Source: an uncultured Blastocatellia bacterium
GTDB taxonomy: Bacteria; Acidobacteriota; Blastocatellia; Chloracidobacteriales; Chloracidobacteriaceae
Reading direction: 5' to 3'
DNA length: 46,568 bases
NCBI GenBank assembly: GCA_937934745.1
Contig: CALGZC010000031.1
Coordinates: 1-46,568, forward strand
The translations under genes and the position numbers were made by a program. This document shows positions 18,048-46,568 of this stretch, in pieces. The notes beneath the pieces are model-generated. The model was given only the letters and a program-made list of their open reading frames with translations, had not been told where the DNA came from and did not search any database. Within the stretch, counting starts at the first letter, position 1. Each line of letters begins with the position of its first letter.

Positions 18048-18268
18048 ATCGTCCAACGCCCTGAGCGTAGAGATTCCAACAACAAGCAGTTCAGCGGCTT
18101 TCACGATTCCAATCAATCGCTTGCTTGTCATTCAATTCCTGCTCGAAAGGTTCTCTCCGTGATACATCAAGATTTCGGCAGTTTAGGTAGATTATAATAG
18201 GTTATTGACTAACAGTTATCCCCCCCGGTGGGAACGGGACCGCAGGACAGGCAGCCGGCCGGCGTCGG

Positions 18269-27440: not shown

Positions 27441-27502
27441 CCGCGACGACAAGCCGGACAGGGCGGCCGCGGCAAGGAGCCACGTCCTCGGGAAAATCCT
27501 TG

Positions 27503-28204: not shown

Positions 28205-28353
28205 AGTCAGCAGTCGTAGGTCTCAGGGGATGGAAATCTCTGGCCTGGCAATCAGACCGGCGTCCGGTTATTTTCGCCCGGCACGAGCCTCTGCGGTGGT
28301 ACAAGGCTTCGGCGTCAGTATGCGCAACAACTCGCCTTCTCATCGTAAAGCTG

Positions 28354-28611
28354 ATGATACTGCAGATTACGGTCAAGCCCAATGCGCGTCAGGCCCGGCT
28401 CGAACAACTTGATGACGGCACATGGTGCGCTCACGTAACATCGCCGCCGGTGGACGGGCGTGCCAATGCTGAATTGCTTGCGCTGGTTGCCGAACACTTT
28501 CGGGTACCCAAATCGGCGGTGCTCCTTCAGCACGGGGTGCGCAGCCGCCACAAGCTGGTGCGTCTTGTTGCAGGCAGCGAACCCAAAGCGAAAAACGCGG
28601 TCAGGCGCTGA
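28354..28611 (+). CDS. DUF167 (YggU-family) protein
   Basis: An 85-residue DUF167 protein. The family motifs are present: ITVKPNARQ at the start, SPPVDGRANAELLALVAEHF in the middle and V-x-S-G/R-H-K-L near the C-terminus. These small alpha/beta proteins are widespread but without a settled function. It is divergent from aat and converges on the FGE-domain gene, whose 3' end lies about 46 bases away. Confidence 0.88.
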   Translation: MILQITVKPNARQARLEQLDDGTWCAHVTSPPVDGRANAELLALVAEHFRVPKSAVLLQHGVRSRHKLVRLVAGSEPKAKNAVRR

Positions 28612-28657
28612 ACCAGGCACGCCCGGCGGCCGCCAAGCCGGTCTGTGGATGTCACGC

Positions 28658-29998: not shown

Positions 29999-30306
29999 GG
30001 CTGTTTTCTCCTGCTTGTGTGAAACGTTACTGAAGCAGCTTACGCCTGCGTATGCGCCTGCGTAGTTGCCTGCAAGCTGATCGGCGTTGTTCGGAGCGCC
30101 GCTTGCAGCCCCCAGCCTACTACCCCACGCGGCAACTGCGCCTCCTGCACCCAACGGTGACGCCACAGAGTGGGCCGGGGGTGGAATCTACGGCGTCGCA
30201 CTGCATCTGGTGACTGTCAATGTTGCCGATTTTATCGTAGATTAGAGGCAATACACTTCGTAGGCGCATTGCTCCGGCGTCGTTTTCGTGAGGCACAGCG
30301 TATCAT
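29999..30306. other. Divergent intergenic region between FGE-domain and HEAT genes
   Basis: About 308 bases that should hold promoters for both flanking genes. A direct repeat GCCTGCGTA occurs at 30044-30052 and 30056-30064. An AT-richer patch at 30225-30260 precedes the HEAT gene and may contain its promoter, but no clear -35/-10 pair could be fixed. An upstream in-frame extension of the FGE gene to 30166 was not used because it lacks a ribosome-binding site and conserved sequence. Confidence 0.45.
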
Positions 30307-31602
30307 ATGAAGGGTCTCCCCATTCTTTGGGTTCTGTTCGCTTCATTTTGCACGGCCGCCGCCATTGTCATCACAGTACGGTGGCTGTACCACCGCAGCG
30401 CCAAGCCACGTCGGCGTTCTCTTCAGGAGCTGCTGAAAAACCTGGACCATGAGCGTCCGACGCGGCGCATTCGCGCCGCCAGTGAGTTGGCCGAGCGCTC
30501 GGGGCCGGAAGCGCCAGAAGCCGTGGATGCGTTACTCAAACGACTGTCAGACCCGGAACCAGAAGTGCGCGCCGTCGTGGTGGACTCGCTGGGAAAGCTC
30601 GAAGATCCACGGGCCAGTGAACTCCTGCGGGAACGTCTGTATGACGACTCAACAGAAGTCCGCGGCCTGACGGTCTCGGCGCTGGTTAGCCTCAAAGACT
30701 TTGCAGCGCTGCCGGAGATTGTCCGCCTGCTTGACGACGAAGATTGGACGATTCGCGCCTGGACGGCTTCGGAAATGGTTCGGCTGGGCCGCGAGGAAGC
30801 CCTGGAGACCTTACTGGCGGCGCGTAATCGGGAGGTTTGGCGGGCCCACCTCCGGCTGTGCGATGCGGCGCTGCGCGTCGTGGACGAACGGGCGGTTTCC
30901 CCGCTGCTCATTGACATGCGCAAAGCCAAGGAGTTGGGTGTGCGCGTCGAGGCGATGTTGGCGTTGGCGAGTTTCGGGTATATCCCTGACGAAGAACCTC
31001 GTTTGGTCGAGAATTTGGTTGCTTCGACGGAAGAAGACCACCCCAACCTGCGTTTTCATGCGGTTGCGATGCTGAGCACGATGGAAATGCGCCGAATTGA
31101 ACCGTATCAACAGGCGCAACGCATCCTCGAGCGACTTGCAGCCCGCGACGAAAACGCCCTCGTGCGCGCCGCAGCGCGCCATGGGCTGAAAAACTTCACC
31201 ATCGCCCGTGAGCGGATGATCCGGACCCTGCCGCCGCCCCCGACAGCCAAGGCCGTGGCGCCGGTGCGCGTCGAAATGCAGGATTTGACCACCCTCATGG
31301 CAAACCTCAAAAACACCGAACTCCCGATGCGCTGGCGTTATGTGCACGCCTTGGCGGCGACGCGCCATCCGAAGGCCGTTGTGCCGCTGGTGGAAGCCAC
31401 CCATGACAAAGAATGGCGTGTCCGAGCTGCTGCCGCCCGTGGTTTGGGTTTATTGGTTGGGATCGGTGACACCGATGTCCGTCCGACGTTAGAACGCGCA
31501 GCGATTGAGGACGAGCACTTCAGCGTCCGTGAAACAGCAGAACTGGCCCTGGCGCGGATAACGTCAAGCTCGACCCCGCCTTTGGGCGAACGCTTGTCCT
31601 GA
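30307..31602 (+). CDS. Membrane-anchored HEAT-repeat protein
   Basis: A 431-residue protein with one N-terminal membrane helix (residues about 5-27, ILWVLFASFCTAAAIVITV), then a series of HEAT/PBS-lyase-like helical repeats, for example ALLKRLSDPEPEVRAVVVDSLGKL, LLRERLYDDSTEVRGLTVSAL and IVRLLDDEDWTIRAWTASEM, and a last pair near residues 365-420 after a Pro-rich break. HEAT arrays serve as protein-binding scaffolds. No catalytic residues were seen, so it is probably an inner-membrane scaffold facing the cytoplasm. The partner is unknown. Confidence 0.82.
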   Translation: MKGLPILWVLFASFCTAAAIVITVRWLYHRSAKPRRRSLQELLKNLDHERPTRRIRAASELAERSGPEAPEAVDALLKRLSDPEPEVRAVVVDSLGKLEDPRASELLRERLYDDSTEVRGLTVSALVSLKDFAALPEIVRLLDDEDWTIRAWTASEMVRLGREEALETLLAARNREVWRAHLRLCDAALRVVDERAVSPLLIDMRKAKELGVRVEAMLALASFGYIPDEEPRLVENLVASTEEDHPNLRFHAVAMLSTMEMRRIEPYQQAQRILERLAARDENALVRAAARHGLKNFTIARERMIRTLPPPPTAKAVAPVRVEMQDLTTLMANLKNTELPMRWRYVHALAATRHPKAVVPLVEATHDKEWRVRAAAARGLGLLVGIGDTDVRPTLERAAIEDEHFSVRETAELALARITSSSTPPLGERLS

Positions 31603-31774
31603 AGACCTCCAGGAAGGTCTGCAGGAAGCGTGACGAGTAGTATCTGGGCCGGTTGAGGGGTATCTGCCGGTTGCGAGGCTTCAGCTAAGGGGGTGGTCAT
31701 CGGCTTCCCAGCGACTTCCCCGAACCGGTGGCTGTACCAGCGCACCGCTCCCCCGAAGCAGAGGTGCAGGTAGT

Positions 31775-33316
31775 ATGGGCAAGTTGACTGCGGCGGCATC
31801 TGCCGCCGAAGCGGCCACCCACGTTAGCCCGCTTGAAGTCGAGATCAAAATGGCTTTACCGGCGGAGCGCCTGCGCCGGTTGAGACGGCATCCTGTTGTT
31901 TCTCACGCACCACGGACGTGCCGCCGGCTGCGCACCGTCTATTTCGATACGCCTCAGGCAACATTGTTCAAGCAAGGCATCGCCGTCCGCCTGCGCCGCC
32001 ATGGACGACAGTGGATTCAAACCGTGAAGGGACAGAGCGATACCGGCGGTCTCCTCGCGCAGCGCTTCGAGTGGGAAACGCCGGTTGTGGGTCGCAACCT
32101 TGTTTTCACCGCGCTACCGCCGGACATCCAACCCTATTTCCGACCAGAAGTCACGCTGGCGCTGAAACCGTGCTTTGAGACGGATGTTTGGCGCGAAACC
32201 TGGCAGGTCATCCAGGACGGGACGCACCTTGAAGTAGCGTTTGACCGGGGCGAAGTGCGCACCACAATGCAAAGCCTGCCCATTTCCGAAATCGAGCTAG
32301 AACTCAAGTCCGGCACAGCAGATGTTTTGTTCAAGGTCGCGGAACAACTGGCAACGGATTTGCCCGTCTATCTTGAACCCCGCAGCAAAGCGGAGCGCGG
32401 GTACGAACTGGTCGGGGCGCTTTCACGTTTGCCTATCAAAGCTCACCTACCGGTTCTGGATTTTGACGGTCCGGCAGCGACAGCCTTTCAGCGCATTGTA
32501 CGGAGCTGTATGCAACAGTTTGAGGCCAATCTGTCCGGCTTTGTAGGCGCTACGGAGCCGGACCCAGAGTACATCCACCAGATGCGGGTTGCACTGCGCC
32601 GGATGCGGGCGGCATTTGGGTTGCTGCGCTTTATGGATGGTGTGCGGCCGGACTGGTTAGACGAACTCAAATGGCTGATGGGCGAGTTGGCGGCCGCGCG
32701 GGATTGGGATGTCTTTGTGACGGAGACGCTCGTGCGCGTTCGGAAGCACATCGCACAACCGGAACAGCTCGCCGACTTGACAAACGTAGCGGAGAACCTG
32801 CGCCGGATGGCCAATGCACGTGCCCAGGCGGCTCTGCGTTCGCCCCGCCTTGTCCGCTTGTGGTTTAAGGCCGAGCAAGCACTGGCTACTTTGCCGCCCG
32901 CTACAATCTCGACCGCCGTGTGGGCGCAGACAGCATTACAGCGTCGGTACCGCCGGCTGCTGCGGTTAGGTGAGCATCTCCAAAGCCTCACCGCCGTTGA
33001 GCGCCATGCGTTGCGCATCGCGGCCAAGAAACTGCGCTATGGGGCAGAATTCTTTGCCGGACAGCATCCGAAAACGGCACAGCGCTTTATTCGCCGCTTG
33101 GCAGCGCTGCAAGACGTCCTGGGTGTACTTAACGATGCTGCTGTGACGGCCCATTGCCTCCATGAAATCAGGCAGAGCGGCGGGCCAGCCCTTGGGGAAG
33201 CCATCGGACTCGTCGGCGGGTTTCTTGCCTGTGAGCAGGCGTACCGGTTAGAAGAGCTGAAACAGCTGTGGCGTGACTTTCATCGCACGCCACCATACTG
33301 GACAGGCAAAGCATAG
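31775..33316 (+). CDS. CYTH and CHAD domain protein
   Basis: A 513-residue protein. The N-terminal CYTH domain (about 18-220) has the E-x-E-x-K signature (EVEIKM) and the basic strand residues (VRLRRHG, IQTVKG) that bind triphosphate groups in a beta-barrel tunnel; it ends in the E-rich ISEIELELKSG strand. The C-terminal CHAD domain (about 235-505) is helical with conserved His/Arg rich motifs such as HQMRVALRRMRAAFGLLR and IAAKKLRYGAEFF. CHAD domains bind inorganic polyphosphate, and CYTH enzymes often hydrolyse triphosphate, so a polyphosphate-linked role is likely. AGGTAGT precedes the ATG. Confidence 0.92.
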   Translation: MGKLTAAASAAEAATHVSPLEVEIKMALPAERLRRLRRHPVVSHAPRTCRRLRTVYFDTPQATLFKQGIAVRLRRHGRQWIQTVKGQSDTGGLLAQRFEWETPVVGRNLVFTALPPDIQPYFRPEVTLALKPCFETDVWRETWQVIQDGTHLEVAFDRGEVRTTMQSLPISEIELELKSGTADVLFKVAEQLATDLPVYLEPRSKAERGYELVGALSRLPIKAHLPVLDFDGPAATAFQRIVRSCMQQFEANLSGFVGATEPDPEYIHQMRVALRRMRAAFGLLRFMDGVRPDWLDELKWLMGELAAARDWDVFVTETLVRVRKHIAQPEQLADLTNVAENLRRMANARAQAALRSPRLVRLWFKAEQALATLPPATISTAVWAQTALQRRYRRLLRLGEHLQSLTAVERHALRIAAKKLRYGAEFFAGQHPKTAQRFIRRLAALQDVLGVLNDAAVTAHCLHEIRQSGGPALGEAIGLVGGFLACEQAYRLEELKQLWRDFHRTPPYWTGKA

Positions 33317-33359
33317 TTGTCTCCTAAACCGACAGGCTGAGCGACCCCACCGGACAGAG

Positions 33360-33469
33360 GCACTCTGAAGGCAATTCACGATGCCGTGTGCGGTGAGAGG
33401 ACACTTCACCGTTCCCGGCAGAGTGCGGTAGAGAAGGCACCCACGGAGCGTGGGGTGATCCTCTACCGC
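33360..33469. other. Strongly structured intergenic segment (three-way stem plus nested hairpin)
   Basis: Between two convergent genes. An outer stem GCACTCTG (33360-33367) with CAGAGTGC (33419-33426) encloses two hairpins, GGCA/TGCC (33370-33373 with 33382-33385) and CGGTGA/TCACCG (33391-33396 with 33406-33411). Immediately after, GCGGTAGAG (33425-33433) pairs with CTCTACCGC (33461-33469), enclosing CACCCACG (33438-33445) and CGTGGGGTG (33449-33457). The last hairpin could terminate transcription from both sides, though no T-tract follows; the whole could also be a structured RNA. Confidence 0.6.
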
Positions 33470-33485
33470 CCTACTTCGTCTGTGG

Positions 33486-35330
33486 CTACCGTCCTCCGGC
33501 AGCGCGGATGGCGTTGATGATTTCGACGTCGCCCTGCCTGACGGCCAGGTTGTATGCCGACATCCCGGAGCGATTCCGCAGATTCACATCGGGCCGGCGC
33601 GCCAAAATGGCCCGCACTGCCGCCCGATGGCCACGGTCAGCGGCATGCATCAATGCCGTCATCCCATTCGCATCTTGTAGGTTGATCGTTGCCCCGCTGC
33701 GTGCCAGCAGAGCTGTGACACATTCGATGTTGCCGTTGCGCGCGGCGTACATCAGCGCCGTCATGCCCTGCATATCGGTTGCTTCGGCGTCGGCCTGCGC
33801 CTGAAGCAACGCCTGCACGATGCGCCCGAAGCCGGCGTCGGCGGCAGTCATCAGCGCCGTCATGCCATTGGCGGCGACGACGTTGGGCGTTGTGCCCTGC
33901 TGGAGCATCTGGCGGACGCGCGCTTCATTGCCGTCGCGCACGGCGCGGAGGAAGTCAAGCGCGCGCTGGTTGCCGATGCTGGAAACCGCGCCAGCCGGCG
34001 GACGCCCGGCGCCGGACGGCGTCCGCGCCATTGACCGGCTGCCGGCCGCCGGCTCGTCGTCGGAAGGGTCGTCGCTCGGAATTGGGCGGTTGCGCGACGG
34101 CGGGTCCATTGTCCGCGGCTCGTCGGCGGCATCGTCAGCCGGATCGCTGACCGGCGGTCGCCCTGGCGCCCGTCGGGGACGCCCGCCGACGGGCGGGTCG
34201 TCGGAATTGCTCGGCGCGGGATTGCGGGGGACGGTTCGGGCGGGCGGCTCGGCGCGGGGCGGTGGAGTCGGCGGCGCAACCTGCGCGGCAACGTCCTCGG
34301 CGGCCTTGCCGTAAACATCTCTCTGCCCAACATCAAGCGCAAAGCACTGCTTGAAATCCGCATCCGCGGCGGCCGGCTGCGCCAGCTCGCGATGGGTCAT
34401 CGCGCGATAGCAAAAGACTTTGCCGACGTTCGGATCAAGCTCGATGGCACGGTCGAAATCAGCTTTGGCCAAGGCGTAATCCTTGACCTGGTAGCGGGCA
34501 AAGCCGCGCCCGACGTAACCGCGCGCGTTGTTGGCGTCGAGCCGGACGAGTTCGTCGAAGTCCTTGATGGCGCGGTCGAAGCGTTTGAGTTCGAGGTTGG
34601 CCTGACCGCGGTAAGCGAGGATGTCCTGGTTGGCTGGCTCAGCGCGCAAAATGGCATCGAAGTCGGCAATGGCGCGCTCATATTGGCCCTGCCCGTAGAG
34701 CAAGACGCCGCGCCCCGTCCGCGCGCGGAGGTTGTTTGGATCAAGCAGCAGGGCTTGCTCAAAATCGGCCAGCGCCCGCCGCGCGTCTTGCTTGGCGTTG
34801 TAGGCGTTGCCGCGATAAACGAGCCACAGCGCTTCGCGCGGGCTGGCTTTAATGGCGGCGTCGAAATCGCGGATGGCGTCGTCATACTGCGCGAGCGCAA
34901 AGTGACACAGCCCCCGGTAGCCGAAGATAGTCGTCGCCTTGGGGTCGAGCTTGAGCGCTTCGTTGTAGTCCTTGATCGCTTCGGCATACTCGCCCATTTC
35001 GTAGAGCGTCAGGGCGCGATTTTCATACGCCTTGGCATAGTTGGGGCGCAGTTGGATGGCGCGGTTGAAATCTTGTCGCGCCTCCTCGCGGCGACCGAGC
35101 GCCCGGTAGGCGAAGCCGCGCCAGTTGTGGGCTTCGGGAAAGTCGGATTTGCGCTCGATGGCCTGCGTATAAAAGCCTATGGCTTCCTCGTAGCGTCCGG
35201 CGGAAAGCGCTTGATTGCCCTGGTTGTAGGCGGCAATGGCGTCGGGCGCGGCAGCGGCCGGAGCTTGCGCGCCGGAGACGCCCAACGCGCCGAGCCACAG
35301 GACGGCGCAAAGGATAGCGACAACACGCAT
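33486..35330 (-). CDS. Exported TPR-ankyrin repeat protein
   Basis: A 614-residue protein. A signal peptide (MRVVAILCAVLWLGALGVSGAQA) is followed by about nine TPR units (residues about 28-335) with the canonical pattern, such as AIGFYTQAIERKSDFPEAHNWRGFAYRALGR. A Pro/Arg/Asp-rich, probably disordered linker (about 345-460) leads to three or four ankyrin repeats at the C-terminus (NGMTALMTAADAG, MTALMYAARNGNIECVTALL, GMTALMHAADRGHRAAVRAIL, GMSAYNLAVRQGD). The start at 35330 is supported by the signal peptide and AGGA 8 bases upstream. It is a periplasmic or surface scaffold by inference; both repeat types bind proteins. Confidence 0.85.
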   Translation of the reverse strand: MRVVAILCAVLWLGALGVSGAQAPAAAAPDAIAAYNQGNQALSAGRYEEAIGFYTQAIERKSDFPEAHNWRGFAYRALGRREEARQDFNRAIQLRPNYAKAYENRALTLYEMGEYAEAIKDYNEALKLDPKATTIFGYRGLCHFALAQYDDAIRDFDAAIKASPREALWLVYRGNAYNAKQDARRALADFEQALLLDPNNLRARTGRGVLLYGQGQYERAIADFDAILRAEPANQDILAYRGQANLELKRFDRAIKDFDELVRLDANNARGYVGRGFARYQVKDYALAKADFDRAIELDPNVGKVFCYRAMTHRELAQPAAADADFKQCFALDVGQRDVYGKAAEDVAAQVAPPTPPPRAEPPARTVPRNPAPSNSDDPPVGGRPRRAPGRPPVSDPADDAADEPRTMDPPSRNRPIPSDDPSDDEPAAGSRSMARTPSGAGRPPAGAVSSIGNQRALDFLRAVRDGNEARVRQMLQQGTTPNVVAANGMTALMTAADAGFGRIVQALLQAQADAEATDMQGMTALMYAARNGNIECVTALLARSGATINLQDANGMTALMHAADRGHRAAVRAILARRPDVNLRNRSGMSAYNLAVRQGDVEIINAIRAAGGR

Positions 35331-35826
35331 GGCGGCATTCCTCGTCTGATGGCGTTTGGCGGATGGCGGCACAGCGACATAGCGACGCCCTCGAGCACCG
35401 AAATGTTGCTTTCATCCGCGCGTCACCGGACACAATACTAGACCAAAATCAAGAAGCGCTGCGGAAGCGTCGCATCGAGTCCGGGCGCAGCCGGCCTGCG
35501 GGGGTTGGAACATGTTTTGCGCTGCCCGCGCGACGGTCACGCCTTAGTCAACCGCCATTCGGACAAGCAGATAGTGAACCCGGCACTGTGCGCCAACGAC
35601 TGTTCCAAAGGGCCCGAAATGGCGACCTCTCTTCAGAAGAAGTCGAGGATGCAAGGACATCGTTACATATCGGCTGCTGTTGCGGGAGCCGGTCTCCAAG
35701 ACGGTCTCATAAGTCGGCTACCACCCGACAGCACGCGCATTACCCGCAGGCGAGCCGAGCGCAGCAAAAGCGAAGCCTGTCGGCGTATGCGCTGGCTATT
35801 CGCTCGGAACTGAAATTCTAATAATA
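35331..35826. other. Intergenic region downstream of the Argonaute gene, with hairpin
   Basis: About 496 bases between the TPR-ankyrin start and the Argonaute stop; composition changes here from GC-rich (left) to AT-rich (right), marking the island edge. No supportable gene. An imperfect 58-base hairpin lies at 35735-35792: GCGCAT (35735-35740) pairs with ATGCGC (35787-35792), and CAGGC (35747-35751) with GCCTG (35775-35779). It lies about 35 bases beyond the Argonaute stop and could end that transcript. Confidence 0.5.
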
Positions 35827-37974
35827 TTAAAGCCAGAAGGGTATATTTCCTTCTAGTGTTTTTGGATTAATTCCGCGAAGTAAAAATTCTCCAATCTTAT
35901 CGCTGTAATGGATCGTGACCGGCAAACGCGGCTCTCTCACTGAACCATAATGCAAGAGTGTTAACGATAGCACTGAATGAATGGCCCGTTCAATGGTGAA
36001 AGGTGGCTCTGTTCTGATGTGAAGCGGATGCGGCATGCTACCTTTAAAAGGAGGCAGCGAAGAAACTAAAAATGCTTCTGTATCGCTTAACTTGAACGCT
36101 GACCCTTTCGGGGGTCTATCTATGTTAGACTCAGTTGTCATCTGATAAAGGCGGGGGACTTCAGATTTAATGACTTCAACCAAATAAAACATTGCTTCAA
36201 TTTCGTTTGCCCGTTTTTTCAGTGCCAACTTTTCATTGCCACGAAATGGTCCGTCACGATGGATCACAACTGTTTTCTTTTTGAATTTTTCAGAAGGAAA
36301 AAGACTACGCAGAATATTACTTGGTATCTCTTCTCCTTCAATTGGGAGGTTATTAATGGTGTATTGTATAAATTGACCATTTCCACCATAGACTCTTGTC
36401 ATGGCAACTGCATTCACAGTTCCAGGCAATTTCTGTTTTATTCTACGAGCAACATCAATTCCAACAACAATATCAGCATAAGGAAGCGACTCCCCTAAAA
36501 CAAACGGCACATTCCCTGTCTTGGCTAATATACCCAGCACAATATTGTCCATAGCATATTGGTTAGAGAATGTGTCTTCGTAGATCACTTGACTTGGGAG
36601 ATCGTGTTGCATTGTCAAACACTTGAAGTCGTGATAATTATCATTTTCTATGTCATCATCTTGCCATTCATTGTACTGCGCTTTTCCAGGAAATAAAGCA
36701 AGTATGATATCAGGATTTCCTTGCTTTAGATTTAATACTGATTTTTCTAAATTTTCCCATGAAATTTCACGTATCTTCTGTTGACGCTGATCACCAACTC
36801 TAACCGATTCGATAGAGAAATGTAGTTTCTTCATTCTTTCCTTAAGTTCTTTTAGAAAATCATAGGTATTATTGGATTGTCCTTCATAATCGTTCGGTAA
36901 TGCATTAACTATACCTATCTTTATTGGGATTGTTTCATCGGGAAATTTGCTTGAACGACTGAATAAACCATGTTTTGTCAAGCTTTTATAGATACTCTGA
37001 TCTCCAGAATAGATTTGATTTTTACCGATGCGTAATTGGGATCTGAAATTAACACTACCTGAATCCAAGAAAATTGCTTTCTGCGATTGTGAGTTAAAAC
37101 TCTCTTCAAGGATTTTTGTATCTTGACCAATCTTGGCAATTTTGCGAATAAGCTTGTATCTATGTGATGGAGCAAGTTGTAGGTGTTTATAAATCTCGAC
37201 TGGCTTCACTCCAAATTTTTTATCGAGATCACCCATCCGTACGATGGGGCGTAACATACTGGCAATATAGGTGTACTCCCCTTTACGTGTTCTGATATTG
37301 ACAGTCAATTCATCATCAGGAGCTTGTCTGATCCGATTACGTGTCTCCTCATCGCTTGATTTATCGAGCAGCTGTTTGCGACATTCTTGAATTTTACCGA
37401 CAATCTTGCTGACTGTCCCTTTGAAATCTTTTCCATCTACAGCGACCATCATTCCAATAAGTTCTTGTTCATCTTTTCCCTTAGCGAACTCAGACAGTGA
37501 TTGGGTGTGCAATATGTATGATGAGATAGTAATGGAAACCGCTGGCTTGTTGCCCACCACCCGGCCACGTAGATCATATTTGCGTTTAATCTGGATTTTG
37601 CTAAATGTCTTAGTTTCGGATTCAAGCGCTTTTCGCATCTCTTTTTTGTAGTTAGCAAGTAGACCTCGAGCTGCAAATTCACTTAGATCCAAAGGCGAAG
37701 GTTTCCATTCTGAGTTAGGAGTAATTCCTGTCACGTTATTCAGTGGCTCTGATAGTTTTTCCAGAAATGCTTTAATTTTTTCTTTTTGGACTTCTTTATC
37801 TGTGACAATTTGACTGCCGCACCATATCCAGTTCCCTCCAAACTCACTCTGTAAGCGGTAAACCAACTTTCCGCCTATCTCTGATACATCATTGCTCATT
37901 ACTTCAATCTTATAGGCAAATAATTTGGGCAATGCTTCAGGAGTAACAGGAAAAACGTCAACATATGTCGTCAT
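35827..37974 (-). CDS. ago: Long prokaryotic Argonaute, apparently catalytically competent
   Basis: A 715-residue long pAgo expected to cut nucleic acid guided by a short 5'-phosphorylated strand. The C-terminal PIWI domain keeps an apparent DEDD tetrad: Asp507 (VVGIDVAR), Glu548 in the glutamate finger (IEGEEIP, matching the GE-x-IP of Thermus Argonaute), Asp574 (VIHRDGPF) and Asp692 (IHYSDKIGEF). The MID region (about 405-500) has a Y-K-Q-K-like 5'-phosphate pocket: YHDFK, LPSQV and, downstream, LAKTG. The N-terminal half should hold N, linker and PAZ domains. The protein ends in hydrophobic PFWL, as long pAgos do. The gene is strikingly AT-rich beside its neighbours, implying transfer. An AAGGAG lies about 15 bases before the ATG, an unusually long spacing. 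Confidence 0.92.
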   Translation of the reverse strand: MTTYVDVFPVTPEALPKLFAYKIEVMSNDVSEIGGKLVYRLQSEFGGNWIWCGSQIVTDKEVQKEKIKAFLEKLSEPLNNVTGITPNSEWKPSPLDLSEFAARGLLANYKKEMRKALESETKTFSKIQIKRKYDLRGRVVGNKPAVSITISSYILHTQSLSEFAKGKDEQELIGMMVAVDGKDFKGTVSKIVGKIQECRKQLLDKSSDEETRNRIRQAPDDELTVNIRTRKGEYTYIASMLRPIVRMGDLDKKFGVKPVEIYKHLQLAPSHRYKLIRKIAKIGQDTKILEESFNSQSQKAIFLDSGSVNFRSQLRIGKNQIYSGDQSIYKSLTKHGLFSRSSKFPDETIPIKIGIVNALPNDYEGQSNNTYDFLKELKERMKKLHFSIESVRVGDQRQQKIREISWENLEKSVLNLKQGNPDIILALFPGKAQYNEWQDDDIENDNYHDFKCLTMQHDLPSQVIYEDTFSNQYAMDNIVLGILAKTGNVPFVLGESLPYADIVVGIDVARRIKQKLPGTVNAVAMTRVYGGNGQFIQYTINNLPIEGEEIPSNILRSLFPSEKFKKKTVVIHRDGPFRGNEKLALKKRANEIEAMFYLVEVIKSEVPRLYQMTTESNIDRPPKGSAFKLSDTEAFLVSSLPPFKGSMPHPLHIRTEPPFTIERAIHSVLSLTLLHYGSVREPRLPVTIHYSDKIGEFLLRGINPKTLEGNIPFWL

Positions 37975-38024
37975 ATTCGTCCCAAGTTTCTCCTTCTGCT
38001 AGGTTTGGACACGGTATGGGTGGG

Positions 38025-38083
38025 GCATAACAGCTCGCGCTTCACCAACGCCGCCCGGGGCCAGGCGCAAGCGCATATTAGGT
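38025..38083 (-). repeat. attC-like imperfect inverted repeat
   Basis: On the minus strand, ACCTAAT (38083-38077; one mismatch to the RYYYAAC core, and containing the methyltransferase stop TAA) is followed by GCGCTTGCGCC (38074-38064), a 17-base loop, GGTGAAGCGC (38046-38037) and GTTATGC (38031-38025; one mismatch to GTTRRRY). The two arms pair with a single bulged G on the first arm, as extrahelical bases do in integron attC sites. Total length 59 bases. It is GC-rich although both flanking genes are AT-rich. Spacer lengths between cores and stem are unequal (2 and 5), so the assignment is tentative. Confidence 0.4.
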
Positions 38084-38980
38084 AGCGCTGTCGAAAACAA
38101 AGGAAGGCGTCTGCTGCTCAATCAACTGAAGTTGGACTGCTCGATTGAAAGGATAATTGGTCACCACCAATTCAGTGACCTTGCCGCGCTTTGCTCCGTT
38201 GCAGTTAATGGCGCGATTTGCTAGAACTTCATCAATAGTAAAATATCGAGACTGGTATAGAAATCGAACAGCAATAGTATCGGAGTTGGAAACCGTAATA
38301 TAAACGTTTTTTTGACTCAAGGCAACACAAATATCTCGCAATCGTTCATGGTCTTTCAAATCAAAGCCATCTGTATAGTAAGAGGTAAAGTTAGCCGTTT
38401 GAGAAACGGGAACGTAAGGAGGATCAAAATACACCCAATCGCCTGATTTCGATCTATCTATGACTGTATCAAATGAAGCGCATAGGATTTCCACATTTTG
38501 CAATGCCTGAGAGACTGCCAGCAGATTCCCCCGATCTAGGTACTTAGGTGACTTATAACTTCCGAACGGGACATTAAATTGTCCTTGCTTATTGACCCGG
38601 TACAAGCCATTGTACCCTGTTTTATTGAGATAGATCATCCTTGCTGCCCGTTCAGGAAGACTTAGTTTCCACGGGTCTTTCCCGCGAATCTCGTAATAGA
38701 ACTCTTTGCTGTGGGGAAATTCCGACAAAATACTGATAACTTCCATCACATGGTCGCGAACTGCCAGATAAGTATTGACAAGTTCATGATTGATGTCTGA
38801 AAGGATTGCCTGTCGGATATAATTTCCTCGATAAAGGCGAAAGAAGAGCGCTCCGCTACCGACAAATGGCTCATGATATACATTGAAAGAGACCGGTTTG
38901 CGTTTGAGCAGCGCATCTGCGAGTTGAGTCTTGCCGCCGGCCCATTTCAAAAAAGGTCGTGGAACAGGTAAGTCACTCAT
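38078..38980 (-). CDS. dam: Dam-type DNA adenine N6-methyltransferase
   Basis: A 300-residue D12-class enzyme that transfers methyl from S-adenosylmethionine to adenine N6. The SAM-binding motif FLKWAGGK is at residues 10-17 and the catalytic DPPY at 186-189, in the alpha-class order. The stretch [21 protein letters not shown] is very close in pattern to the E. coli Dam and M.DpnII/M.MboI group, so GATC is the likely target. I chose the ATG at 38980 because the conserved motif follows directly and it begins one base after the nuclease stop (TAAAATG), giving coupled translation; an in-frame extension to 39025 is unlikely. The stop TAA lies inside the attC-like core. Composition is lower in GC than the chromosome. 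Confidence 0.93.
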
Positions 38981-38981
38981 T

Positions 38982-39371
38982 TTACAGTCCAAAATACAGG
39001 CGTAACCAGTCTTCCAGTTCGTCAAACCAGACTACCTTGCCTGTGGACATTAAGTAACCACGCATATTGGCAGAAAAGCCTTCGCCATCAATGACGACTA
39101 TACCTTGGATTGGCCAATGGGCGATGTCTTGAATTGTAGCGGGAATTTTCTCTTCTGCTGTTCCCAGCGTGGCTTGGAACTTACATTCAATGCCTAGGCG
39201 TTTGCCGCTTTTGTCATCAGTAATCACCACGTCAATGTACCGTTGTTGTCCCCATAGTCTTCTTGCCGCTCTCACTTCGGTTTGCACTCGTCATCCAAGA
39301 CGTTGAGTAAGATCAACAACTCGTTGTCTTAGTTCATTGCCACGTCTTGGAGCAGTTTCCCTTCCCGGCAT
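38982..39371 (-). pseudogene. PD-(D/E)XK nuclease gene with one in-frame TGA
   Basis: Read from an ATG at 39371, the frame gives MPGRETAPRRGNELRQRVVD and LTQRLG, then TGA (39293-39291, codon 27), then RVQTEVRAARRLWGQQRYID onward to the stop at 38982, 129 codons in all. The catalytic core is D-x-n-E-x-K: Asp47 (RYIDVVI), Glu62 and Lys64 (GIECKFQ), the PD-(D/E)XK fold of restriction and Mrr-like nucleases. The TGA falls where a hydrophobic or aromatic residue would be expected (LG-x-RVQTEVR), consistent with a TGG-to-TGA change. A GTG at 39287, two codons after the stop, could restart translation to give a 101-residue fragment that keeps the D-E-K core. It precedes and is coupled to the methyltransferase gene, suggesting a cognate restriction role. 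Confidence 0.75.
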
Positions 39372-40060
39372 AGTGTAACACCCGTGGAAATGCGTCGTCT
39401 CTACTGTTCTACTGCGATTGGGCTGGAGACAATATATCCCAGGGCGCCATCAAGCTTGTATCAGACAGACTGGGCCCCTCATCTGAAATGCCATCCGAAC
39501 GACCTAGGCCGGTCTGAAATCGAAGCTTTCCCGGACCGCCTTGCCTGACCTGCCTGGCAACCCGGGAGCGCGTCGCTACTTGATCCAGCATCAGGCGCTT
39601 GCTGCATGGCCGCCCTTGCTATCGCAACGCGCTCTATCCGCGGCAACTCGACCCTCTTCAATTCGCTCAACATAGCGTGCGCCGCAAAGCCCGCCCGCTG
39701 TGCTGACCGGGGAGAGCGTGACACGAAGGTTATCGTCAATCCCGGACGCATACCGCCTCAGGTCGCGCCTGCTCTACGGCAGCGGGCTGCGGCAGATGGA
39801 ACGCCGGTGCAACAGAAGACCTGGCCCTAAAAGTATATAGCGACGTTGACCTGCATATGCCCTAGCCCGCAAACAGCTCAACGTCAAGGCTGTCGTCGCC
39901 GCCCTGAGGCATAACCCAACCACGCCGCACAACCGTCAGAAGCGGCACTCCACCCGGCCCCTTTTGCTTTTCCGGCGTTCTACAGCGACACTGGTTTCAG
40001 GGAATGTTTTGAACCCAACGACGCCCCGTGACCCTACAATCGTTTTCTGCGAGACCTACG
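39372..40060. other. Gene-poor region between the Argonaute island and ackA
   Basis: About 690 bases without a supportable gene. Short frames on both strands lack ribosome-binding sites and any recognised family. It should contain the promoter of the nuclease-methyltransferase unit (minus) and that of ackA (plus). An isolated GCATAAC at 39909-39915 repeats the core of the attC-like site, but no pairing arms accompany it. The stretch could be the decayed edge of the island. Confidence 0.5.
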
Positions 40061-41305
40061 ATGAATATTCTTGTTCTCAACTGCGGCAGCTCCTCGGTTA
40101 AGTTTCAAATCATCGCCACCGATCTTGACGCCATCGAGCGCAACGCCGACCGCCGACTCGCCACCGGAATTGTCGAGCGCATCGGCGGCGAGGCCGTCCT
40201 TAGCTTTCGCGTGGACAGCAAGGTTTCCCGCCAAACTGCGCCTGTGCGCGATCACCGGCAGGCAGTGGAGCAAATCCTGCGCTGGGCCTGCTCGAGCGAC
40301 TCCGGCATCGCCGAGGTGCAGAGCGTTTCCGATATTCACGCCGTTGGCCACCGGGTGGCCCACGGGGGCGAATGCTTTACCCACTCCACGCTGATTACCG
40401 ATGATGTGATCCGTGGCATTGAAGCCTGTATTGATCTGGCCCCGCTCCACAACCCGGCCAACCTCAAGGGCATCCGCGCCGGGGTCGAGGTATTCGGCCC
40501 CGGCTTCCCGCAAGTCGCCGTCTTCGATACGGCCTTCCACCAAACCCTTCCGGAAACCGCTTATCTCTACGCTTTGCCCTATCAACTGTACCGCCGCCAC
40601 CGGCTGCGCCGGTACGGCTTTCACGGCACATCCTTTCGCTATGTCGCCTATCGCTACCGTCAGATCACGGGCAAGTCACGCGAGGAAACCAACATTATTG
40701 CCCTCCATCTGGGCAACGGCTGTTCCGCCTGCGCCATCAAGGCCGGCGCGTCGGTGGACACCTCGATGGGATTTACGCCGCTCGAAGGCCTGATGATGGG
40801 GACGCGCACCGGCGATCTCGACCCCTCGATTGTGGACTTCCTTGAGATGAAAGAAGGCTTTACGGCACGCGAAATCGAAGCCCTGCTCAATAAGCAATCG
40901 GGCTTGCTCGGCGTTTCGGGCTTGACCAATGACATGCGCGATCTCCTGGATGAAATCCGTGAACATGATGACCGCCGGGCCAAGCTCGCCGTTGGGATGT
41001 TTTGCTACCGGGCGAAGAAGTATATTGGCGCTTACCTGGCCGCGATGAGCGGGGCCGATGCCGTTGTCTTCACCGGCGGTATCGGCGAAAACGCCCCCGA
41101 GGTCCGCGCCAAAATTTGCGAGGGCTTGGAATGGTTTGGCTTGCCCCTTGATCCGGCTCGCAACAACGAGTGTGTCAACCGCCGGGAAGGTCTGATCAGT
41201 CAGGACGGCGCCCGATTGGCCGCCTACGTCATTCCAACCGATGAAGAGTTGCTGATCGCGCGCGATACGGCCCGGTGCGTGGTCGGCGCACCCAATCCCT
41301 ACTGA
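40061..41305 (+). CDS. ackA: Acetate kinase
   Basis: Interconverts acetyl phosphate plus ADP with acetate plus ATP. The 414-residue protein begins with the signature [17 protein letters not shown] and has [12 protein letters not shown], the FHGTS motif, [11 protein letters not shown] and the C-terminal [13 protein letters not shown], all acetate kinase landmarks of the ASKHA fold. The start at 40061 is where the signature begins; an in-frame ATG-like upstream start (40028) adds only non-conserved residues. pta, the usual partner for acetyl phosphate, is not in the window. Confidence 0.97.
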
Positions 41306-41422
41306 GTTTGGTGATAGGCGGTGCATCTTTCGCTGCCCATCTTTTGCTATGCTAGTGTCCGTATGCATGCTAGGCTGCCGGTGTTCGACCACAACTTCTT
41401 TCCGGGAGACAGGCTTTTTCCT

Positions 41423-41800
41423 ATGCTCACTTACCCCTCTTTCAGGGTCTCCACGCTCTGCCTTGGTTTGGCGCTGACAGCCGGCCTCGCGTTGACCGCC
41501 GCCTGCAGCTCAGAAGAAAAGAAACCGGAATCGCCCCCTCCTGCCCCGCCCGCCGCTCAGCCAGAGCCACCGCCGCCTGCGCCAGAGCCGCCAACGCCCT
41601 CAGCCGAGGACATCCAGCTTCAGAGCGCCATCGAGGCGGCCCTGGAGAAGGCGAAGATCACCGGCGTGACCGTGACGGTTATGAACGGCGAAGCCACCGT
41701 CAAGGGCACGGTGCCGAAAGGCAAGAAGGCCGCCGTTCTGGCTGCGGTTGGCTCGGCCAAGCCCAAAAAAGTCACTTCAACCGAGCTTATGGAGCAATAG
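41423..41800 (+). CDS. Small lipoprotein with BON-like domain
   Basis: A 125-residue protein with a lipoprotein signal (LALTAGLALTAACSSEEKK; lipobox ending at the Cys), a Pro-rich linker (about residues 35-55) and a C-terminal alpha/beta segment of about 65 residues, QLQSAIEAALEKAKITGVTVTVMNGEATVKGTV, with the pattern of a BON domain (secreted, membrane- or matrix-binding). It lies 12 bases before the BON-LysM gene, so the two are probably one operon. I placed the start at 41423, just before the signal sequence. Confidence 0.78.
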   Translation: MLTYPSFRVSTLCLGLALTAGLALTAACSSEEKKPESPPPAPPAAQPEPPPPAPEPPTPSAEDIQLQSAIEAALEKAKITGVTVTVMNGEATVKGTVPKGKKAAVLAAVGSAKPKKVTSTELMEQ

Positions 41801-41812
41801 GAGGTCGCTCCG

Positions 41813-42175
41813 ATGTCCGTAACCGAGAAATACCGCGCTTTGATTGATATGGCCCATCGGCATGGGGTGAGGGACTTTTCGGCTTCAGAAGTGGACGGCG
41901 TGTTGACGCTGTCCGGCTCGACGACGGCCGAGGTCAAGCAAAAGCTGCTCGATGCCTGGCAAATCATTGACCCTTCGCTCAGCGCCGGCGATCTGGTGTT
42001 TGCCATTACCGACGATGGCGCCGGCGGACAGACCTACACGGTCAAGGCCGGCGACACGCTGAGCAAGATTGCCGCGCAGTACGGCACGACGTGGCAGAAC
42101 ATCTACGAGCACAACCGCGACACCATCAAGAACCCCGATCTGATTTACCCTGGGCAGGTCATTCGCATTCCGTAA
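41813..42175 (+). CDS. BON-LysM protein, Kbp (YgaU)-like
   Basis: A 120-residue cytoplasmic-type protein with an N-terminal BON-like region (about 1-65) and a C-terminal LysM domain (about 71-120: TYTVKAGDTLSKIAAQYGTTWQNIYEHNRD ... NPDLIYPGQVIRIP). This two-domain layout and size match E. coli Kbp/YgaU, a potassium-binding protein. No signal peptide is present, unlike wall-binding LysM proteins. AGGAGG lies 7 bases before the ATG. A terminator-like hairpin follows about 40 bases downstream. Confidence 0.87.
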   Translation: MSVTEKYRALIDMAHRHGVRDFSASEVDGVLTLSGSTTAEVKQKLLDAWQIIDPSLSAGDLVFAITDDGAGGQTYTVKAGDTLSKIAAQYGTTWQNIYEHNRDTIKNPDLIYPGQVIRIP

Positions 42176-42216
42176 CTCGGCGCGCGGCATCCCTTGCCCA
42201 CGGCTCAACTGCCTGC

Positions 42217-42244
42217 AGGCGCGTCACCCGGCGCGCCTTTTTTT
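42217..42244 (+). terminator. Rho-independent terminator abutting the hpnE start
   Basis: AGGCGCG (42217-42223) pairs with CGCGCCT (42232-42238) around an 8-base loop and is followed by a run of seven T (42238-42244). It would end the lipoprotein-Kbp transcript. Its T-run touches the hpnE start codon (ATG at 42246), leaving no room for a ribosome-binding site. Confidence 0.75.
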
Positions 42245-42245
42245 G

Positions 42246-43661
42246 ATGACCACTTCTTGGGATTGCCTTGTCATCGGCGGTGGTTTCGCCGGCCTATCCG
42301 CAGCAACTGCGCTCGCCGAAGCGGGCGCGCGCGTCCTGGTTCTCGAACGCCGTCCCCGCCTCGGCGGGCGCGCCTATTCGCTCCGGGACGAAGTGACCGG
42401 CGACACCATAGACAACGGCCAGCACCTCATGATGGGCTGCTATCACGAGACGCTGCGCTTTTTGGAGCGCATCGGCAGCCGGCATCTGGTGCGCGCCTTT
42501 GACGCGCCGCGCGTGGATTTCCTTGCGCCGGATGGCGCGGCCTCGCTTGTCTGTCCGCCGCTGCCCGCGCCGCTCCACATGCTGGTCGGATTGCTCCGTC
42601 TGAACGGTCTGACGCCGTCCGACAAGCTTGGGTTATGGCGTGTGGGATGGAGCCTCCTGCGCGCCAAGCGCGATTACCGCGCCCGCTACGCCGAGGCGAC
42701 GGTGGCCGACTGGCTGCGCGAGTGTCGGCAGTCGCCGCGCATGCGGGAGCGGTTCTGGGATCCGCTCGTCATCGCCACGCTCAACGAGCCGCCCGAGCGC
42801 GCCGCTGCCCCGCTGCTCATGCGCGTTCTGCATCAGGGGTTTGGCGGGCGCTTCGCCGACTCGCGGATGGTCGTCGCGACCGTCGGACTCAGCGAGCTGT
42901 ACGTCGAGCAGGCGCGGCGCTTTATCGAGGCGCGCGGCGGTAGCGTCCGGGCGCAGTCCGGCGTCAAGGCCATCGGCGTCGAGCGCGGGCGCTTCTGTGG
43001 CGTGACCCTGGCCGATGGCGAGACCATCTCGGCCACCGCCTGCATCAGCGCCGCCCCGCCCCAGGATGTCGCCAAGTACGCCGGCGCGCTGGCGCCCGCG
43101 GCCGCCCAGCTCCATAGCTCGCCCATTGTGTCGGTCAACTTGTGGTTCGATCGTCCGCTTTTTGAAGCGCCGTTTGTCGGTCTGATCGGCACTACCATGC
43201 AGTGGGCGTTTGACAAGCGGGCGCTGACCACCCCGGCCTCTGACTTACATCACCTCGCGCTGGTCGTCAGCGCCGCCCGCGACATCGTCCACATGTCGGC
43301 CAAAGACTTGATTGACTTGGCTTTAGACGATCTAAGGCGAGTTACGTCAAAGGTCAATAGCGCGCGGTTGGCGCATGCGCGGGTCATCAAGGAACGGCAG
43401 GCGACCTTTTCCGCCACGCCGGCGGCGGAAAGGCTGCGCCCTGCGCATCGAACTGCCATCCGGGGGTTTTACCTGGCCGGCGACTGGACCGATACCGGAC
43501 TGCCGGCCACCATCGAGAGCGCCGTCGTCAGCGGACATGCCTGCGCGGCGCGCGTTTGGCAGGACTTACAGGCGATGGCGCGGCGCCCTCTGGACGGCGG
43601 CGCTTCCTCGGCGCTCTCCGCTCCTGGCTCGGCAAAGGGCGCTCCGCGCGATTGGCGGTGA
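42246..43661 (+). CDS. hpnE: Hydroxysqualene dehydroxylase HpnE / amine-oxidase-type FAD enzyme
   Basis: A 471-residue FAD-dependent enzyme of the phytoene-desaturase/squalene-associated family. It has the dinucleotide motif VIGGGFAGLSAATALAEAGARVLVLE, the second motif RRPRLGGRAYS, the NGQHLMMGCYHETLRFLERIG segment characteristic of HpnE, and a C-terminal FYLAGDWTDTGLPATIESAVVSG FAD motif. In hopanoid producers HpnC, HpnD and HpnE make squalene from farnesyl diphosphate. hpnC and hpnD are not next to it here. A TTG at 42243 is an alternative start; neither has a ribosome-binding site because of the terminator hairpin immediately upstream. Confidence 0.88.
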   Translation: MTTSWDCLVIGGGFAGLSAATALAEAGARVLVLERRPRLGGRAYSLRDEVTGDTIDNGQHLMMGCYHETLRFLERIGSRHLVRAFDAPRVDFLAPDGAASLVCPPLPAPLHMLVGLLRLNGLTPSDKLGLWRVGWSLLRAKRDYRARYAEATVADWLRECRQSPRMRERFWDPLVIATLNEPPERAAAPLLMRVLHQGFGGRFADSRMVVATVGLSELYVEQARRFIEARGGSVRAQSGVKAIGVERGRFCGVTLADGETISATACISAAPPQDVAKYAGALAPAAAQLHSSPIVSVNLWFDRPLFEAPFVGLIGTTMQWAFDKRALTTPASDLHHLALVVSAARDIVHMSAKDLIDLALDDLRRVTSKVNSARLAHARVIKERQATFSATPAAERLRPAHRTAIRGFYLAGDWTDTGLPATIESAVVSGHACAARVWQDLQAMARRPLDGGASSALSAPGSAKGAPRDWR

Positions 43662-43683
43662 AGCCTGACGTAGGTCGAGCCGT

Positions 43684-46518
43684 CTAGAGGCTTTCCGCGC
43701 AAAGCGCGCGAACTGTCTGCGCCAGGTCCTGCCGTTGGCGATTGGCTTCGGCAATGTCTCCGGCCCGTTCGAGGGCTTTGATCAGCAACGGCGTCAGATA
43801 CAGCGTGTCCAAGCTTGGCTGCGCCAGCGCGCGCCGCGCCCACGCCGCCGCCCGGCGCGGACTGGCCAGCTCCGGCGCTTCATCGCCGAGATAAATCGTT
43901 GCCGCCAGAGCGCAAGCTGCGTGGTCGGCCTGCGCGGTGGCGTTTTGCGCCAGCCACTGCGCCAGGCTGGATTGCGCTTGTTGCGCGCCTTTGAGGTCAT
44001 TCATCTGGCGGCGCGCGAGCGCGAGCGCGAGCCAGTAACGGACCCGTTGGGCGCTGTCGGTCAGGGAATCCAGCTCGCCTTCGAGCTTCTGCTCTGCCGC
44101 GCGCGCCAGGCTGGCTTGCCCGCGCTGCGCCGCCAGCCGCATCAGGTTGAGCAGCGTGTCACGGTATAGGTGCTCTGCCTCCCGCGCGTTGTAATCGGCT
44201 ATCTTTTGCGTCAAACGCTCAATCCGTCGCCACTGCGCGAGCGCGGCTTCGGTCTGTCCGGCCGCTTCCTCCATGGCGGCGAAGCGACCAAGGAGGGAAA
44301 CCATATCAAACAGCAGTTCCCGATTGTCCTGGTCTTCGGCCGCCAGCGCCTCGAATTGCTTGAGCGCTTCCCCAAACCAAGCGCGCGCTGCCGCATAGCG
44401 GCGCAGCCGGCCGTTCAGTTCCGCCTGATCGACCAGGCTGTCAATGACCGACCGCCGCCGCTCGACCGAACCCGGCTGCGCCGCTGCCAGTTGCTGCCGC
44501 ATTTCGAGCGCATGCTGATGCATTGCCCAGGCTTGCTGGTACGCTCGCTCCGCCTCGGTCGCCAGCCCCGCCCGTTCGGCCAGTAGGCCAAGGTTGAGCA
44601 GGCAGTACACTTTGCGCTGCCTGACCGCGGCGAGCTTCTGGCGGTAGCAGGATGCCGCCCCAGTCGCGCCGGCCAACGGCTCAAGCCGGCGCTGCGCCAC
44701 GGTAAAGCTCTGGAGCGCCGCACCGACAGCGCCCTGCATGTGATGCCAGTCGCCTTCGAGGATGGCCGCCGTCGCGGCGAGGTACTGTGTCTCAGGGTCG
44801 GCGGAGCGCGTCTGCGCGACGCTTTGGCGAAGCGCTTGCATGCGATCCAAGTGCAAACGGGCCGCCGCGAAATCGCCCAGGCGATACATCAGCAACTCGG
44901 CCAGTCGCTCATGACCGATACTCAGCTCCCGTTGGCAGGCGATGTCATCCGGCCGCGCCTGATGCGCCTTTTCTAACCACCGCAATCCCTGGTCATAGCT
45001 CTTTCGCGCTCCCGACACGTCGGCAAGATTTGGCGTGTACGGCCGCCCCTGGACTTCGCCGACGCGAAGGTAGGCGCGCCCCAGCTCGCGGTAAAATCCC
45101 GGGTCCGCGCCGGCTTCCTGGCTGAGCCGGTCAAGGTAGCCAAGCGTCTGCTGAACGAGCAGGCCGCGCGTCCCCGTCGAGCGGGGGAGCTGCGCGATGG
45201 CGTCCTGCAGCTCAAAGACATTCGACCGCGCCAGTTGCCAGATTTCCTGAAAGCGCCGCTCGGCCTGCGCCTGCGCCTGACGCGCCACCCGGGCCTGCTG
45301 CCGCGAGATAGCCGCCGCCGCCGCCAGCGCCGTGACGAGCGCCAGCGTGAGCGCCACCGTCAGGCGGTGCCGGCGCAGAAACTTCCGCAGCCGGTAGCGC
45401 GCCGAAGCGCCGCGCGCCAAGACTGGCCAGCCCTGCAAATATCGCCCGATGTCGGCGGCAAGCTGTTCCGCCGAAGCGTAGCGCGCCGGCGGATCCTTGT
45501 GCATGGCGCGCAGGATAATGGCGTCCAGGTCGCCCGCGAGTTGGCGGTTGCGCGCGGCGACGCTCGGCAGCTTGGGCGCGGACTGCTGAATCTGGCATTC
45601 CAGCGACGGCTGCCCCTCGGCGGCCTGAAAGGGCAGGCAGCCGGTCAAAAGCTCGTAGAGAACAACGCCCAGCGAATATACATCCGAGGCCGTGGTCACC
45701 GGCTCGCCCCGAACCTGCTCTGGACTGGCGTAGGGAAGCGTCATGGCGCGCTGGATGGTGGTCACGCGCGGCTGCGGGCCTTGCTCCTGTTCGGCGAGGA
45801 GCTTCGCGATGCCGAAATCAATCAGCTTTGGCGCGCCGTCCTCCGTGACGAGAATGTTGCTTGGCTTGAGGTCGCGGTGGACGACCAGATTCTGGTGCGC
45901 AGAGTGAACGGCGTCGCACACGAGCTGGAACAGCTCCAGCCGCTGCCGAATCGTCAGGGAATGCCGATCGCTATAGGTCGTGATGGGGACGCCCGGCACA
46001 TACTCCATGACAAAGAAGGGCAACCCGGCGTCGGTCGCGCCCCCGTCGAGCAGGCGCGCGATATGCGGATGCTCCAGGCGCGCCAGAATCATCCGCTCCA
46101 CGCGCAAGCGCCGCTTGAGAAAATCGGCATCGGCCGCGTATTGGTTGACGACTTTGATGGCGACTTGCTTTTCAAAGGCTTCGTCATCCCGGACGCCCAG
46201 ATACACGGCGCCCATGCCGCCGGCGCCCAGCTCGCGGACCAGGCGGTAGCTGCCGATTTTGCTGCCCGCCAAAGACGCCGACCCCTGCGCGGCCAGCGCG
46301 CGCAGGGCGTAGCCGAACAGCGGCGAGGATTTGAAGCTCCAGGAGGCTTCGTCCGCCTCGTATGTCTCCAACAGCGCCAGGACTTCCTGACTCAGGCTCG
46401 GATGGTCGCCGCAGGCGGCGGCGATGAAGTCGCGCCGCGCCGCCGGCGACAACTCAATCGCCTCTTGCAACAGGGCGTGAATGCGCGCCCAGCGTTCGTC
46501 CGACAAATCGTTGGCCAT
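43684..46518 (-). CDS. Membrane Ser/Thr protein kinase with TPR-like C-terminal region
   Basis: A 944-residue PknB-type kinase. After an N-terminal helical region (1-85), the kinase domain (about 90-370) has the glycine loop GAGGMGAVYLG, Lys122 (VAIKVV), Glu141, HRDLKPSN with Asp216, DFG with Asp234 and an APE-like SPEQ. A single membrane helix (about 386-404) precedes a long helical region with several TPR-like repeats, for example AERAYQQAWAMHQHALEMRQ. This N-lobe extension, kinase, membrane helix and TPR order is common in Acidobacteria and relatives. GGAGG lies 10 bases before the ATG at 46518. It is convergent with hpnE. The substrate is unknown. Confidence 0.92.
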   Translation of the reverse strand: MANDLSDERWARIHALLQEAIELSPAARRDFIAAACGDHPSLSQEVLALLETYEADEASWSFKSSPLFGYALRALAAQGSASLAGSKIGSYRLVRELGAGGMGAVYLGVRDDEAFEKQVAIKVVNQYAADADFLKRRLRVERMILARLEHPHIARLLDGGATDAGLPFFVMEYVPGVPITTYSDRHSLTIRQRLELFQLVCDAVHSAHQNLVVHRDLKPSNILVTEDGAPKLIDFGIAKLLAEQEQGPQPRVTTIQRAMTLPYASPEQVRGEPVTTASDVYSLGVVLYELLTGCLPFQAAEGQPSLECQIQQSAPKLPSVAARNRQLAGDLDAIILRAMHKDPPARYASAEQLAADIGRYLQGWPVLARGASARYRLRKFLRRHRLTVALTLALVTALAAAAAISRQQARVARQAQAQAERRFQEIWQLARSNVFELQDAIAQLPRSTGTRGLLVQQTLGYLDRLSQEAGADPGFYRELGRAYLRVGEVQGRPYTPNLADVSGARKSYDQGLRWLEKAHQARPDDIACQRELSIGHERLAELLMYRLGDFAAARLHLDRMQALRQSVAQTRSADPETQYLAATAAILEGDWHHMQGAVGAALQSFTVAQRRLEPLAGATGAASCYRQKLAAVRQRKVYCLLNLGLLAERAGLATEAERAYQQAWAMHQHALEMRQQLAAAQPGSVERRRSVIDSLVDQAELNGRLRRYAAARAWFGEALKQFEALAAEDQDNRELLFDMVSLLGRFAAMEEAAGQTEAALAQWRRIERLTQKIADYNAREAEHLYRDTLLNLMRLAAQRGQASLARAAEQKLEGELDSLTDSAQRVRYWLALALARRQMNDLKGAQQAQSSLAQWLAQNATAQADHAACALAATIYLGDEAPELASPRRAAAWARRALAQPSLDTLYLTPLLIKALERAGDIAEANRQRQDLAQTVRALCAESL

Positions 46519-46568
46519 GGGGGGACGGCCTCCGTTGCCAGTCGCGGCAAGCGCCCGCCTGTCCTCAG

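Follow-up and report, generated by a model that had tools for sequence, protein, structure and literature searches.

A long Argonaute gene within an inserted island

The window analysed here, the whole 46,568-nt stretch of contig CALGZC010000031.1, encodes on its reverse strand a long prokaryotic Argonaute (pAgo) that appears catalytically competent and was probably acquired by horizontal transfer. Its gene shares an inserted island with a DNA adenine methyltransferase gene and an interrupted restriction endonuclease gene. In order along the window, the features are:

33486–35372, TPR/ankyrin gene flanking the island (named by reading its translation)
35423–40043, inserted island of ~4.6 kb, unaligned to five relatives of the genus
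35827–37974, reverse strand, long pAgo gene (ATG start, 715 amino acids; open reading frame (ORF) reading and homology)
37975–38077, 103-bp seam between the methyltransferase and pAgo genes (60% GC, unlike both neighbours; contains AAGGAG)
38078–38980, reverse strand, Dam/DpnM-type D12 DNA adenine methyltransferase gene upstream of the pAgo gene (300 amino acids from the ATG at 38980)
38982–39371, reverse strand, PDDEXK_11 restriction endonuclease gene (in-frame TGA at 39291–39293)
40028–41305, acetate kinase gene flanking the island (named by reading its translation)

The window protein matched the PADLOC pAgo model PDLC02396 over residues 3–715 (3.6e-248, 823 bits) and the Pfam Piwi model (4.9e-17), which, together with matches in the PDB, substantiates the long-pAgo identity proposed in a first-pass annotation. 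PDLC02396, for which no class is given, is a sequence model without an attached function and was also the best model for three relatives described below (L006, L007 and L010). Searching the PDB with phmmer returned 9iad (1.4e-82), the Aquifex aeolicus Ago 1yvu (aq_1447; 1.5e-36) and the C. perfringens Ago (CpAgo) 9jh7 (2.4e-30), and the family profile aligned to residues 19–706 of Aquifex Ago and 140–734 of CpAgo. The nearest solved relatives by sequence are thus 9iad and Aquifex Ago rather than Thermus Ago. The latter (Thermus thermophilus Ago, TtAgo; 3dlb) matched the family profile in its MID-PIWI part (4.1e-15) and is more distant, lying outside the 21 sequences matched by the window protein alone (E up to 1).

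The pAgo gene has a GC content of 39.2%, compared to 59.9% in the window outside 35827–39368, and its third codon positions are 34% GC vs. 65–80% in ten other, sampled window genes, in agreement with the AT-richness noted earlier. The atypically long gap between Shine–Dalgarno (SD) sequence and start was likewise confirmed: an SD-like AAGGAG ends 15 nt before the ATG, with a weaker GGGA nearer to it. The GC-rich 103-bp seam between two AT-rich genes may reflect two independent insertions. Elsewhere in the window, positions 16001–18000 form a second low-GC stretch (~45% GC), and the region 16075–18204 holds no ORF of at least 150 amino acids.

Catalytic tetrad and MID pocket

The PIWI tetrad of the window protein consists of D507, E548, D574 and D692 and its MID pocket of Y447, K451, Q462 and K485, with all eight residues in one full-length frame. 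These positions were compared in an alignment of 37 rows (A2), comprising the window protein, the cyanobacterial protein P0003 and 35 of the 46 loci of the contig scan described below; the other 11 (L009, L015, L017, L034, L035, L038, L042, L043, L044, L050 and L051) were dropped because their pAgo frame was broken, short or cut, or started well inside the protein. D507, E548, D574, Y447, Q462 and K485 were invariant in all 37 rows, position 692 was D in 33 rows and H in four, and position 451 was K in four, Y in 24 and S in nine. The residue numbers given for the tetrad in the first-pass annotation were exact, and the four acids aligned with the D, G-E, R-D-G and HYSDK/GYADK motifs of Aquifex and C. 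perfringens Ago. The predicted Y-K-Q-K-like MID set was also present. In both solved proteins the tetrad, the G-E finger and the Y-x3-K pocket align with the window protein; at the E-values above they are distant relatives, whose guide and target preferences are not transferable with certainty.

The fourth DEDX residue has been described as D, H or K, DEDX as present in 79% of long-A pAgos, and YK as the pair that typically opens the MID motif in long pAgos (PMC6299218). Accordingly, the intact tetrad, which the first-pass annotation had considered remarkable, is normal in the long-A branch and not notable alone. With DEDX in PIWI and YK..Q..K in MID, the window protein would itself be a long-A pAgo. 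A short or long-B pAgo, which has lost the tetrad, is ruled out by its presence here, and a MID-OH pAgo (MpAgo type, with a hydrophobic 5′-OH pocket) by Y447, K451, Q462 and K485. The Pfam PAZ models matched none of 36 family members (A3) at E up to 1, and it is solely the profile alignment, which spans nearly the whole of Aquifex Ago (residues 19–706), that suggests a PAZ domain.

Relatives with and without a Cas4-like nuclease

A first scan of genome contigs with the single window protein confirmed no relative; a scan with two peptide patterns, biased towards cyanobacteria, yielded 46 loci. The closest relatives found were proteins of a Chromatiaceae and an Anaerolineae metagenome-assembled genome (MAG; ~40% identity each) and of a Caldipriscus MAG (~32%), followed by many from cyanobacteria (~30%). 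The closest full-length relatives thus span three other phyla.

All scan loci except L050 contained a pAgo ORF; together with L004 and L005 these 45 make 47 loci, and a Cas4-like nuclease ORF lay upstream in 40 of them. It overlapped the pAgo ORF by 1–52 bases in 34 of these 40; the gap was 34 in L044 and 290–1406 in L009, L015, L017, L035 and L038, because these five have a broken pAgo frame or the chosen ORF starts within it. The seven loci lacking a Cas4-like ORF were L005 (a remnant), L006, L007, L010, L042 (a fragment), L043 and L051 (contig ends). A profile that recovered the control locus L008 gave no Cas4-like match in window positions 30001–46568, nor in L006, L007 or L010; since only ~300 bp precede the L007 pAgo, the stand-alone state of that locus is lightly grounded. 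One Nostoc Cas4-like protein had no match in the window's own genome, a weak test with a single query and no control. In the haloarchaeal pAgo–PLD (APAP) pair the adjacent gene encodes a PLD-family nuclease; here a D12 methyltransferase gene and a PDDEXK_11 piece come first upstream, the other neighbours being named by reading alone. Between window positions 27001–46568 and L006, L007 and L010, pAgo was the only gene in common (blastp, 1e-4).

The window pAgo groups with the Chromatiaceae, Anaerolineae and Caldipriscus proteins, without the Cas4-like nuclease of the cyanobacterial relatives. A maximum-likelihood tree built from 36 close relatives separated the four Cas4-less loci from the rest by a branch with 100/100 support. 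As the tree is unrooted and its program flagged long branches (L010; L006 with L007), this does not prove a clade of the four.

The Cas4-linked cyanobacterial pAgos share ~30% identity with the window protein over most of its length and have the same tetrad, with D or H as its fourth residue. They differ in carrying a Cas4-like PD-(D/E)XK gene directly upstream, whereas none was found beside the window pAgo, and in their best PADLOC model, which was PDLC02380 (Class II) in all three scanned. PDB 9iad is a close relative of theirs, and on the Nostoc plasmid pCENA543b a Cas4-like/pAgo pair is annotated. In three Hormoscilla MAGs (L009, L034 and L038), the pAgo is split into two or three frames beside an open Cas4-like ORF. 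All 33 aligned cyanobacterial pAgos (P0003 and loci between L008 and L049, many of them from filamentous genera) carried DEDD or DEDH. By comparison, a published survey counted both PAZ and tetrad in 20 of 160 cyanobacterial long-A homologues, with nearly none in filamentous genomes (PMC10653904), a difference that may be explained by the Pfam PAZ models missing all 36 members.

Position 451 divides the family along the same line, with K in the window protein, L006, L007 and L010 and Y or S in each of the 33 Cas4-linked rows. K is probably the older state, since Aquifex Ago, CpAgo and 6qzk (which we take to be CbAgo) have K at the equivalent position. The split follows one tree branch and hence counts as one event, making the correlation with the partner gene a hypothesis and not a test. 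The sections of PMC6299218 covered mention both YY in subsets of long-A pAgos and Cas4 neighbours, with no link drawn between them there. Conceivably, though we regard it as doubtful, the lineage has two modes: a stand-alone one that keeps K451, in the window protein and three others from different phyla, and a Cas4-coupled cyanobacterial one, in which the lysine would have changed to Y or S because the guides now made or delivered by the Cas4-like nuclease differ in their 5′ end or in how they are loaded.

Host and distribution

The host is probably a Chloracidobacterium (Acidobacteriota), a light-harvesting bacterium, although we infer both the genus and the phylum name. The FMO bacteriochlorophyll protein family PF02327, which is not exclusive and also occurs in green sulfur bacteria, was found in all seven genus genomes and in none of 14 controls. 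Complete relatives have two replicons (e.g. 2,659,040 and 1,000,103 bases in G006), which is the layout of Chloracidobacterium. Our literature searches found no work on a prokaryotic Argonaute in Chloracidobacterium or on Argonaute with 9IAD, and none joining Argonaute, Acidobacteriota and defense systems.

The two genes flanking the island are adjacent in G001, G002, G003, G005 and G006, with ~290–430 bp between the aligned blocks, so that the same site lacks the island in each of the five genus relatives where both flanks could be located; G004 (85% complete) offered a piece of one flank only. The deviating composition and this empty site both point to a foreign origin. The chromosome around the gene is less ordinary than had been described, as the pAgo shares its inserted island with a methyltransferase gene of the Dam type and a restriction endonuclease gene that is interrupted. 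Contamination is ruled out, because the flanks are syntenic with the five relatives. A phage origin was also rejected: P0001 had no PHROG match, and no relative was confirmed in viral_contigs (alignment A1; the 'phages' collection was left out). Neither edge of the island occurred a second time in the own genome; elsewhere in the genus, the edges matched only through the endonuclease and a 67-bp stretch in G006 and a 36-bp stretch in G002. Repeats within 35200–40200 were short and look like chance.

With the window Argonaute as query, the own genome gave a single match and the family genomes matches in two of ten (the own genome and G003), and among 396 genomes sampled from the phylum only the own genome matched at 1e-10, G003 not being among the rows listed in that search. 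The G003 match (G003:C15:97860–98112; L005 7699–7986, reverse strand) is a C-terminal pAgo remnant corresponding to residues 631–715, with frame changes and a stop. It lies at a different site, between what read as TonB receptor and radical-SAM genes. At its end, identity is 72% with the window protein and 76% with the Anaerolineae protein across 42–43 residues, which is not enough to judge whether the two copies in the genus go back to one arrival.

Functional interpretation

We think it likely that the window encodes a horizontally acquired, catalytically competent long-A pAgo serving as a stand-alone, guide-directed DNA nuclease in defence. Acquisition is argued by the foreign composition, the empty site in relatives and the close relatives in other phyla, in line with pAgo having spread mainly by horizontal transfer (PMC6299218). 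Guide type, target type, cutting and a defence role would be as in relatives, chiefly SeAgo and LrAgo, which have been tested (PMC10653904, PMC10269773); since SeAgo was placed on the Thermus-like branch (PMC10653904), this function is carried over by analogy. Short guides, most likely 5′-phosphorylated DNA, would be seated with their 5′ end in the YKQK pocket of MID, the DEDD site of PIWI would cut complementary single-stranded target DNA, and plasmid, phage or transforming DNA that enters the cell might thereby survive less well, with the Argonaute acting alone.

Several points weigh against this reading. A narrow literature search returned no test of any protein of the four-member group. 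Expression may be weak through the long SD spacing. Five of the seven genus genomes had no match to the window Argonaute, which, together with the G003 remnant, marks the gene as dispensable. Finally, Aquifex Ago is reportedly a DNA-guided cutter of RNA.

Alternatively, the protein might serve mainly chromosome replication or repair (terminus finishing, decatenation), with defence as a side effect. TtAgo plays such a role in Thermus, and in E. coli SeAgo and LrAgo carried terminus-derived guides and helped under gyrase inhibition (PMC10269773). The patchy presence (of seven genus genomes, one has an intact copy and one a remnant; of 396 phylum genomes, one has a match) speaks against such a role, which we regard as unlikely.

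The neighbouring cassette raises another alternative, namely that Argonaute and Dam-type genes form one composite defence unit in which, for example, endonuclease cuts feed the guides and methylation marks self. The methyltransferase matched Pfam MethyltransfD12 (1.6e-60), DpnM (2dpm; 3.9e-64) and TIGR00571 dam (276 bits vs. a cut-off of 114.85), its family suggesting GATC as the target. Past its in-frame stop, which may be real or a sequencing error, the endonuclease gene continues in a 101-amino-acid ORF (38982–39287) that keeps the D...ECK core (Pfam PDDEXK_11, 5.4e-18). The methyltransferase and the pAgo lie on the same strand, 103 bp apart in one island, and orthogroups of methyltransferases and PD-(D/E)XK proteins have been recorded in the vicinity of other pAgos (PMC6299218). 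Nevertheless, 48 loci containing a pAgo or part of one, many of them truncated by contig ends, held no homologue of either cassette gene (E up to 1e-3, ORFs of at least 60 amino acids). On this basis a conserved pAgo–methyltransferase partnership was rejected, and the two genes are probably an independent cassette. In G006, an uninterrupted endonuclease homologue sits beside a related methyltransferase at another site (L079), in a genome without pAgo at 1e-5. Plasmids, moreover, carry relatives of the methyltransferase very frequently (2282 records at 1e-20), and both the interrupted endonuclease and the GC-rich seam argue against a joint unit, for which we see little probability.

Whether the nuclease would cut RNA instead of DNA, guided by DNA, is a question raised by Aquifex Ago as a near solved relative (1.5e-36) with that reported activity; we give this reading slightly less credence again. 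Least probable of all is a recent, unexpressed passenger heading to decay, to which the very low GC content relative to the host, the long SD spacing, the G003 remnant and the interrupted neighbouring endonuclease would point, and against which the full-length frame with all eight key residues stands.

The window pAgo, most plausibly a transferred DNA nuclease in defence, is a further member of a known protein family rather than a novel type of system. Its host is probably a Chloracidobacterium, a genus whose best-known species is thermophilic, and an apparently active long Argonaute from there might provide a programmable nuclease that tolerates heat. When it is compared with its Cas4-linked cyanobacterial relatives, one residue of the pocket can be related to a partner nuclease, a link that is open to testing and bears on how pAgos may obtain their guides.
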